The notes under the pieces were generated by a model, which saw only the letters and a program-made list of their open reading frames with translations, was not told where the DNA came from and made no database searches. The translations under genes were made by a program, and so were the position numbers. DNA of 64,000 bases, taken from Opitutaceae bacterium TAV5. Lineage in GTDB: Bacteria > Verrucomicrobiota > Verrucomicrobiia > Opitutales > Opitutaceae. Positions 32,783-33,744 of this stretch are shown here, piece after piece; positions within the stretch are counted from its first letter, which is position 1; every line of letters begins with the position of its first letter. The DNA lies in the NCBI GenBank assembly GCA_000242935.3, contig CP007053.1, positions 5,689,001 to 5,753,000 of the forward strand. The letters run 5' to 3'.

Positions 32783-32964
32783 TCTGATGGAGCTGATAAG
32801 CAGTCCTCCAGGCTGCTTTCGATGAGCGGGATGTGAGGTCTCCAGGCAGCTATCCGGATGGCGAAACAGGGTGGTTCCGGCGAGTACGGAAAAATTCGTA
32901 CAGCCTCAAATATCAGGTGTTTGCCTGACTACCGCGGCCCGGAAATTTCGGGCAAGATGGGGCC

Positions 32965-33681
32965 ATGAAATTAACCCGACTCGTCTCCATTCTTACCGTT
33001 GCAGTCCTTTCGGTTCCGTTTGCGCAGGCCGATGACTCGGCGTCTTCCTCCGGTGTGGCCACCAACATGGCCGCCGGCGGCCACGAAAACACGGCCTACC
33101 GCGCACTGTCTTCCGAGGCGGTGCGAAAGCTGAATGCCGGTAATCATCGCATGCGGACGGGCCGTCCGAAGTACGCGAAATTCCAGGGCGAGAGCGCGGC
33201 TGCCTCTCCTCTGGCCAAGGGGGTGGATGCCCTGATCGTGACCAGCGCCGAACTGGCCCCCACGGTTTCCGAGATCGTCGACGCCCAGCCGGGCGCGGTC
33301 CACGCGGTTCCCGTGGATGTGAACAACCTGACCGAGGCCGATGCGCAGCGCATCGCCGATGAACTGACCCAATCCAGGGCTCCGCTTTGTGTGTTCCTGG
33401 TTCACCCGACCGAGGCGCTCGAGGAGCAGTACGGCAAGTCGACACGTCAGCTGGATGCGGCACTCTCCGAAATCGCTTCGGCCGGCATCTCCCGCCTGCT
33501 CGCCCTGAGCCCGGCGCTCAGTTCCCGCGTCCAGAACGGCACACTGAGCCTGATCGGCGGCACCTACGACTTTACCTCTTCCAGGCTCATGCTGCTCACA
33601 CCCAAGTCGACTCGCCGCTGGGTAGCCAATTACGACGTCCCGCATCCCCAGGATCTGGTTCCGGTGAGCCCTTCTTCCTGA
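32965..33681 (+). CDS. secreted beta-carbonic-anhydrase-like protein lacking zinc ligands
   Basis: A signal peptide (residues 1-22, ending AQA|DD) precedes a domain with the order of beta-carbonic anhydrase: RKLNAGNHRMRTGRPKY (54-70) matches the L-x-GN-x-R-F opening. DALIVTSAEL (88-97) lies where the enzyme has the Cys-x-Asp-x-Arg zinc and catalytic dyad. CVFLVHPTEA (142-151) occupies the His-x2-Cys position, and NGTLSLIGGTYDF (191-203) matches the closing strand. Two of three zinc ligands are therefore replaced (Thr93 for Cys, Glu150 for Cys) and the Asp-Arg dyad is lost. It should be exported and catalytically inactive as an anhydrase. A ribosome-binding site and a clear terminator flank it. 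Confidence 0.8.
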   Translation: MKLTRLVSILTVAVLSVPFAQADDSASSSGVATNMAAGGHENTAYRALSSEAVRKLNAGNHRMRTGRPKYAKFQGESAAASPLAKGVDALIVTSAELAPTVSEIVDAQPGAVHAVPVDVNNLTEADAQRIADELTQSRAPLCVFLVHPTEALEEQYGKSTRQLDAALSEIASAGISRLLALSPALSSRVQNGTLSLIGGTYDFTSSRLMLLTPKSTRRWVANYDVPHPQDLVPVSPSS

Positions 33682-33716
33682 AGTCGAAGGACCCGAAAAC
33701 CTGATCCCTTGCAAAA

Positions 33717-33744
33717 AAACCCGGAGCATATCCGGGTTTTTCTG
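33717..33744 (+). terminator. intrinsic terminator after the carbonic-anhydrase-like gene
   Basis: AAACCCGGA and TCCGGGTTT form a 9-bp stem with a GCATA loop followed by a short T-run, 35 bases after the stop codon. The A-run before the stem means it could also act on the opposite strand. Confidence 0.88.

Follow-up and report, generated by a model that had tools for sequence, protein, structure and literature searches.

Beta-class carbonic anhydrases (beta-CAs) carry an N-terminal GN-x-R helix that serves as the dimer arm and an R-x-A-G-N loop with a role in substrate binding. A degenerate half has reportedly been described (it is said, by Sawaya et al. in 2006) in the carboxysomal beta-CA CsoSCA. 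In this protein a zinc-less half with the beta-CA fold is fused to a live half inside the carboxysome. The carbonic anhydrase-related protein CA VIII occurs in animals and has an alpha fold unrelated to that of beta-CAs. In excerpts of published work, this alpha-class protein is described as catalytically inactive and kept for other work, one of its three zinc histidines being lost (PMC13253706), the gamma-like CcmM domain as an inactive carbonic anhydrase relative (PMC12646314), and Synechocystis EcaB as inactive in one report and active in a later one (PMC9865033); a further excerpt records signal peptides for some bacterial beta-CAs (PMC5746736). Among the matches listed by a literature search at title and abstract level, which took in few subscription papers, no stand-alone exported pseudoenzyme of the beta-CA class was found.

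The protein described here, P0001, is encoded in the genome of Opitutaceae strain TAV5, a termite-hindgut bacterium with a published genome of 7,317,842 plus 99,831 bases (PMC4358385). The assembly that holds the window, i.e., the whole analysed stretch of 64,000 nucleotides, consists of two contigs, together 7,417,673 bases long. P0001 is a member of the beta-CA superfamily as to descent and predicted fold, and judged by its ligands and catalytic dyad it is not a catalytic beta-CA. A preliminary description of this DNA took P0001 for a leader-bearing protein that derives from beta-CAs and has no zinc ligands, a view that is well supported by searches with a family profile (A1), by hhalign and by predicted models, the leader having been recognised by eye. 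The following features were assigned to the locus:

32920..32933, + strand: TTTGCCTGACTACC, a motif common to other genes of the genus, putative promoter or operator (site counts)
32965..33681, + strand: ORF of the degenerate beta-CA P0001, 238 aa (ATG start; homology searches)
32965..33030, + strand: putative Sec signal peptide, residues 1–22, cleavage between AQA and DD (by eye)
33097..33603, + strand: beta-CA-like domain, about residues 45–213 (profile 54–213; hhalign 43–211; VIA model range 47–226)
33664..33678, + strand: C-terminal VSPSS, invariant in four of four members (alignment of the four)
33715..33741, + strand: intrinsic-terminator-like hairpin (folding, −18.4 kcal/mol, z −5.87)

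The N-terminus of P0001 is a Sec-like hydrophobic leader, MKLTRLVSILTVAVLSVPFAQA, according to a by-eye reading made without a signal predictor. The terminator claimed for the gene corresponds to the strong hairpin, which is situated between the ORF and the downstream permease gene and is absent from the output of a simple terminator scan. The claim that the gene has its own ribosome-binding site holds only as far as a weak purine stretch, GATGGGG, seen by eye, and a sigma-70 promoter scan found no site. Upstream lies a formyltransferase gene, which is taken to be fmt, and downstream a gene for an ABC-type permease (family scan); the four neighbouring proteins scanned were a formyltransferase, an ABC permease, a solute-binding protein and one without a match. 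No conserved operon was found around the pseudo-CA genes.

The protein family consists of four members, P0001 and its paralogue L002, located elsewhere in the TAV5 genome and 49% identical to it, and two proteins of Geminisphaera colitermitum TAV2, L003 and L004, the latter adjoining fmt like P0001. The genes of the three relatives are located as follows:

L002 1501-2223, + strand: paralogue gene, TAV5
L003 1501-2223, − strand: paralogue gene, TAV2
L004 1501-2292: fmt-linked copy, TAV2

With P0001 as the query, two of 95 genomes were matched, TAV5 and TAV2, and a first scan of wider genomic contigs with P0001 alone revealed no relative. In 200 genomes of the bacterial family, the four-member profile A1 matched the genus genes with E-values below 1e-100, followed by the next match at 5e-7. 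At a threshold of 1e-9, its only matches in 384 genomes of the class, a sample evidently without TAV2, were in TAV5 and one other genome (G470), and its scan of the wider genomic contigs confirmed two loci, both of TAV2. The G470 protein, the sole class-wide match outside the genus, was rejected as an ordinary exported-type beta-CA in which C-S-D-S-R and G-H-x-x-C-G are present. Among the genomes searched, the pseudo-CA family is restricted to its genus.

The two fmt-linked proteins, P0001 and L004, have a common place and upstream motif, yet are only 29% identical, P0001 being closer to the unlinked L002; the divergence may stem from gene conversion, from differential loss or from unusually rapid change. 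L003 has CTG at the position of the ATG of its orthologue L002, and both genes have an alignable in-frame extension upstream.

Estimates of dN/dS by the Nei–Gojobori method (200 bootstraps, 95% intervals), which are rough, as synonymous change was high in several pairs, were 0.43 (0.30–0.64) for L002/L003, or 0.47 (0.33–0.72) with the N-terminal extension, 0.43 (0.28–0.62) for P0001/L002, and 0.64 (0.42–0.90) for P0001/L004. The control values for TAV5 versus TAV2 were 0.14 (0.09–0.23) for the cytosolic beta-CA and 0.12 (0.08–0.18) for fmt. Since the pseudo-CA values are well above the controls, the constraint is loose; the pairwise dN/dS of 0.43 suggests loose purifying selection, not decay.

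The likely explanation, in our opinion, is that P0001 is a probably exported, metal-free pseudoenzyme with the beta-CA fold, descended from exported-type enzymes and working by binding. Its ancestor would be an exported-type beta-carbonic anhydrase. The alpha/beta core and the GN-x-R helix of such enzymes are retained in P0001, which has lost both cysteine ligands of zinc, the Arg of the dyad and, from the R-x-A-G-N loop, R, A and G. Once exported, the protein would fold as a metal-free dimer or oligomer, would not hydrate CO2, and could have a small anion, a sugar or another protein as its binding partner, either in the periplasm or on the cell surface; its production is possibly joint with that of some surface proteins via the common upstream motif. 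A selected binding or scaffold function of P0001 appears somewhat likely, and the binding or regulatory role suggested in the preliminary description may reasonably be supposed.

It is improbable that the family is instead a drifting relic, a duplicate of an exported beta-CA that no longer has a role and decays without serving any function. Such decay would agree with a dN/dS that is high next to that of the control orthologues (0.43 versus 0.12–0.14), the occurrence of the family in one genus only, the low identity of P0001 and L004 despite the same fmt-linked place, and the CTG of L003 in place of the usual ATG, present in its orthologue. However, there are four open reading frames in the two species, the bootstrap intervals of dN/dS are below 1 in all four pseudo-CA comparisons bootstrapped, and two elements beyond the fold, Glu96 and the C-terminal VSPSS, are invariant in all four members; the terminator-like hairpin, and the upstream motif that is common to P0001 and the TAV2 copy, also argue against it.

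A loss of catalysis is suggested by the state of the former active site, in which the following positions were recognised:

33244..33246, + strand: Ser94, position of the first zinc Cys (hmmsearch, MAFFT, hhalign)
33250..33252, + strand: Glu96, position of the catalytic Asp, Glu in four of four members (alignments)
33403..33405, + strand: His147, position of the zinc His, Gln in one of four members (alignments)
33406..33414, + strand: residues 148–150, where the second zinc Cys is gone in an indel (MAFFT alignment)

A MAFFT alignment was made of the four genus members with 28 exported-type beta-CAs and one cytosolic enzyme. All 29 comparison rows have the Cys, His and Cys ligands, although the 28 were admitted by the motif C-x-D-S/A-R/H, so that their first Cys and Asp are present by construction. 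The four genus members carry Ser, Ser, Ser and Thr in the first-Cys column, His, His, Gln (in L003) and His in the zinc-His column, and a gap in the second-Cys column; Asp of the dyad is replaced by Glu in all four, and Arg by Ala, Ala, Ala and Val (Ala98 in P0001). The R-x-A-G-N loop of the genus proteins has likewise lost its R, A and G, and they have a shortened stretch behind the zinc site, L004 least of all. Of the marks of a catalytic beta-CA, P0001 has neither the Cys-His-Cys ligands, nor the C-x-D-x-R dyad, nor a match to Pfam PF00484.

These columns bear out the loss of the cysteine ligands that had been claimed for P0001 and correct its details. The first Cys had been considered replaced by Thr93, whereas the three alignments (hmmsearch, MAFFT and hhalign) give Ser94, one residue later; Glu150, named as the replacement of the second Cys, borders the gap in P0001 only, Pro being found at that place in the other three members. 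As for the Asp-Arg dyad, said to be lost, the Arg is indeed gone, but the acid is kept as Glu96 in every member. The search for homologues with lost ligands, recommended as a check, produced the three further members, and the substitution of the zinc ligands by others, which would have spoken for retained zinc binding, is not apparent from the sequences, as Ser/Thr, His/Gln and a gap constitute no conserved alternative set. Since the parts that hold zinc are lost, P0001 probably no longer works as an enzyme. That the metal site is lost can be seen clearly in the alignments, and from this we infer the absence of metal and activity; altogether, the status of P0001 as a pseudoenzyme is highly probable.

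A metalloenzyme with altered ligands, for example, His147 together with Glu96 or Glu150, still acting on CO2 or another small molecule, is very unlikely. The presence of His147 in three and of Glu96 in all four members could be understood in this way, and enzymes of the beta-CA fold with another substrate do exist, namely COS hydrolase, the structures of which (3vqj and 3vrk) are among the structural matches of the three-row model of P0001 considered below. On the other hand, His is replaced by Gln in L003, Glu150 is confined to P0001, the remaining positions are Ser/Thr or a gap, and no trio of metal-binding residues common to the four members could be seen by eye at the old site.

P0001 alone had no Pro_CA match in Pfam, its matches below the cut-off being SepF, CecR_C and ComX, all weak; it had no match in NCBIfam and a weak one (E=0.0053) to a PHROG named polysaccharide deacetylase. 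Pro_CA (PF00484) matched one of the four members (E=0.0012), and whole-genome PF00484 searches of TAV5 and TAV2 listed none of the four pseudo-CA genes. In a phmmer search with P0001 alone, beta-CAs ranked first, weakly, with E=0.017. Profile A1 matched the solved beta-CA Rv3588c (chains 2a5v and 1ym3) in hmmsearch with E=2e-5, collinearly over the whole domain, and hhalign against the 28 beta-CAs returned E=3.6e-16 for A1, 2e-11 for three members and 8e-10 for P0001 alone, versus 0.048–0.87 for control profiles (five column shuffles and one reversal). The hhalign E-value is somewhat flattering, and neither it nor the position in the tree is wholly independent of A1, since 25 of the 28 comparison beta-CAs came from the A1 matches themselves and three (L038, L041 and L042) from the PF00484 list; free of this bias are the phmmer result, the match of A1 to the solved beta-CA, and the fold matches of the single-sequence and three-row models. 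The beta-CA order of motifs noticed earlier is therefore upheld by A1, hhalign and the fold matches alike, with collinear homology to the superfamily across the domain.

In its search of the bacterial family, A1 had a match at E≤1 in 64 of the 200 genomes, many of them short and probably due to chance. Among the loci listed, which correspond to part of these matches, the 28 from outside the genus (L044–L071) were examined, and 27 of them have an ORF bearing beta-CA motifs (a locus-level count). Dropped from the comparison set were L036 and L037 as divergent, L039 and L040 as cytosolic, L046 as the same as locus L041, L061, the frame of which ends before C-x-D-x-R, and L067, which has no motif, while L052 and L059 were included with an incomplete N-terminus that shows no leader.

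AlphaFold without templates modelled P0001 with a pTM of 0.49 from the single sequence and of 0.63 from three rows; the latter model has a mean pLDDT of 61.2 (moderate confidence), with values under 50 for residues 1–41, 66–85 and 222–238. The single-sequence model was best matched by beta-CAs, KaiC chains being also among the matches. For the three-row model, all 14 Foldseek matches in PDB at E≤0.001 were carbonic anhydrases, the best being 1ym3 (E=7.9e-7), to which VIA-align aligned 158 residues with a Z of 15.4 and rmsd of 3.8. In a viral structure library, the single match at E≤0.001 was to a carbonic anhydrase of a giant virus. The predicted models thus have the alpha/beta fold of beta-CAs, and the GN-x-R residues are present in all four members. 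Structure prediction with superposition, the check proposed at the outset, therefore had a beta-CA as the top match, not an unrelated fold. An origin unrelated to beta-CAs, the motifs being a chance likeness on a common alpha/beta fold, would suit the lack of a Pfam Pro_CA match for P0001 alone and the KaiC chains, and is rejected as having next to no probability in view of the match of A1 to the solved beta-CA, the hhalign E-value reached while the controls fail, and the beta-CAs being the top fold matches of both models, VIA-align included. A match to the beta-CA fold alone does not mean carbonic anhydrase activity.

In a phylogenetic tree of 42 rows, the four genus members form one clade (100/100) that groups with five exported-type beta-CA rows (fork 99/99), and ten cytosolic beta-CAs are placed apart in a clade of their own (100/99). 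The sister of the genus clade is L053 (support 80/64); however, the stem of 4.9 changes per column and a sampling that favoured exported rows make this sister not trustworthy and the exact neighbour unsure. No alpha-CA match was found in the TAV5 or TAV2 genome, and both carry a single Pro_CA match, a protein of the cytosolic type in which no leader could be seen by eye. A simple reading would be that an exported beta-CA of this lineage turned non-catalytic and was duplicated.

The motif TTTGCCTGACTACC ends 31 bases before the ATG of P0001 and is followed, 17 nt further, by GGCA (32951–32954); it is common to P0001 and the TAV2 fmt-linked copy L004. Its pattern, TTTRCCYGACTACC, has nine exact sites in TAV5, that of P0001 included, and three in TAV2, where the reversed pattern has 0 and 0, against 0.14 expected in TAV5 from base composition alone; with one mismatch, 16 sites versus 3 controls were counted in TAV5. 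Outside the genus there were 0 sites in 23 genomes of the bacterial family and 2 in 13 genomes of the order (0 and 1, respectively, for the reversed pattern). The 12 exact genus sites (window 32920–32933; loci L081–L089, L097, L100 and L101) have GGTA 16–18 bases past the motif in five cases and GGCA in two, by eye. Nine of the 12 precede genes judged by eye to be of exported or surface type, a raw count in which two of the nine are the pseudo-CA genes that had served to define the motif. Of the downstream proteins, nine were scanned for family matches, namely seven next to exact sites and two (L091 and L094) next to sites with one mismatch: autotransporter-type repeats over the cut-off were found for L087 and L097, weak PEP-CTERM matches under the cut-off for L085 and L094, and PilT/PilU for L081, and no family match for L084, L088, L091 and L100. 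These scans therefore back only part of the by-eye calls. No motif with up to three mismatches was found within 1000 bases upstream of the paralogues L002 and L003, which makes it weaker as a property of the whole family. TTTRCCYGACTACC is a possible genus-specific promoter or operator, and coexpression of the pseudo-CA with surface proteins could be proposed tentatively, at somewhat less than an even chance.

The nearest profile and tree neighbours of the P0001 family are the exported-type bacterial beta-CAs (PF00484 with a leader), and like them it has a leader, the GN-x-R helix, the core strands and helices, and the final ..YD strand. Unlike them, it has neither the two Cys ligands of zinc nor the C-x-D-x-R dyad, retains little of the R-x-A-G-N loop, is shortened after the zinc site and carries the VSPSS tail. 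CsoSCA likewise contains a beta-CA-fold unit without a zinc site, but in P0001 the whole protein is site-less and carries a leader; instead of two fused domains in a carboxysome locus, there is one domain in 238 aa with the neighbours listed above. CA VIII differs from P0001 in that a single one of the three zinc histidines is lost, according to the excerpt available (PMC13253706). EcaB, a presumed extracellular beta-CA of disputed activity, is similar by description in the excerpted source, ligands aside (PMC9865033). As a complete protein with its fold kept and its zinc site lost, P0001 would mean that the beta-CA scaffold, a very common one among enzymes, lends itself to non-catalytic tasks, in this case probably outside the cytoplasm, which is already known of the alpha class. 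A broader and rather doubtful proposal would make the family a genus-specific set of exported beta-CA-derived pseudoenzymes that correspond, within the beta class, to the carbonic anhydrase-related proteins of animals, with the old active-site pocket reused for a ligand or partner and with expression under a motif found also ahead of autotransporter-type and PEP-CTERM-type surface-protein genes in termite-gut Opitutaceae.

Several minor observations concern the paralogues and other beta-CAs. The dS of L002/L003 is 0.34 versus 0.96 (CA) and 1.5 (fmt) for the control pairs, as if the genes had been exchanged between species or mutated slowly. The TAV5 paralogue gene is flanked by a direct repeat of 31 nt, 87% alike (L002 1211–1241 and 2278–2308), the core of which, TAGGGTTACRCCCCATGG, has just these two sites in the whole TAV5 genome at one mismatch or fewer. 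A direct repeat of 27 nt, 81% alike, flanks its TAV2 orthologue (L072 5696–5722 and 6773–6799), which is adjoined by an ORF of 324 aa (L072 7350–8324) with a C-terminal end, VPVPEPAAVLWLAPLGALGFTLWRRR, that is PEP-CTERM-like by eye. In other genomes of the bacterial family, the beta-CAs L049, L056, L060, L061 and L070 lie inside one long open frame of 467–905 aa.
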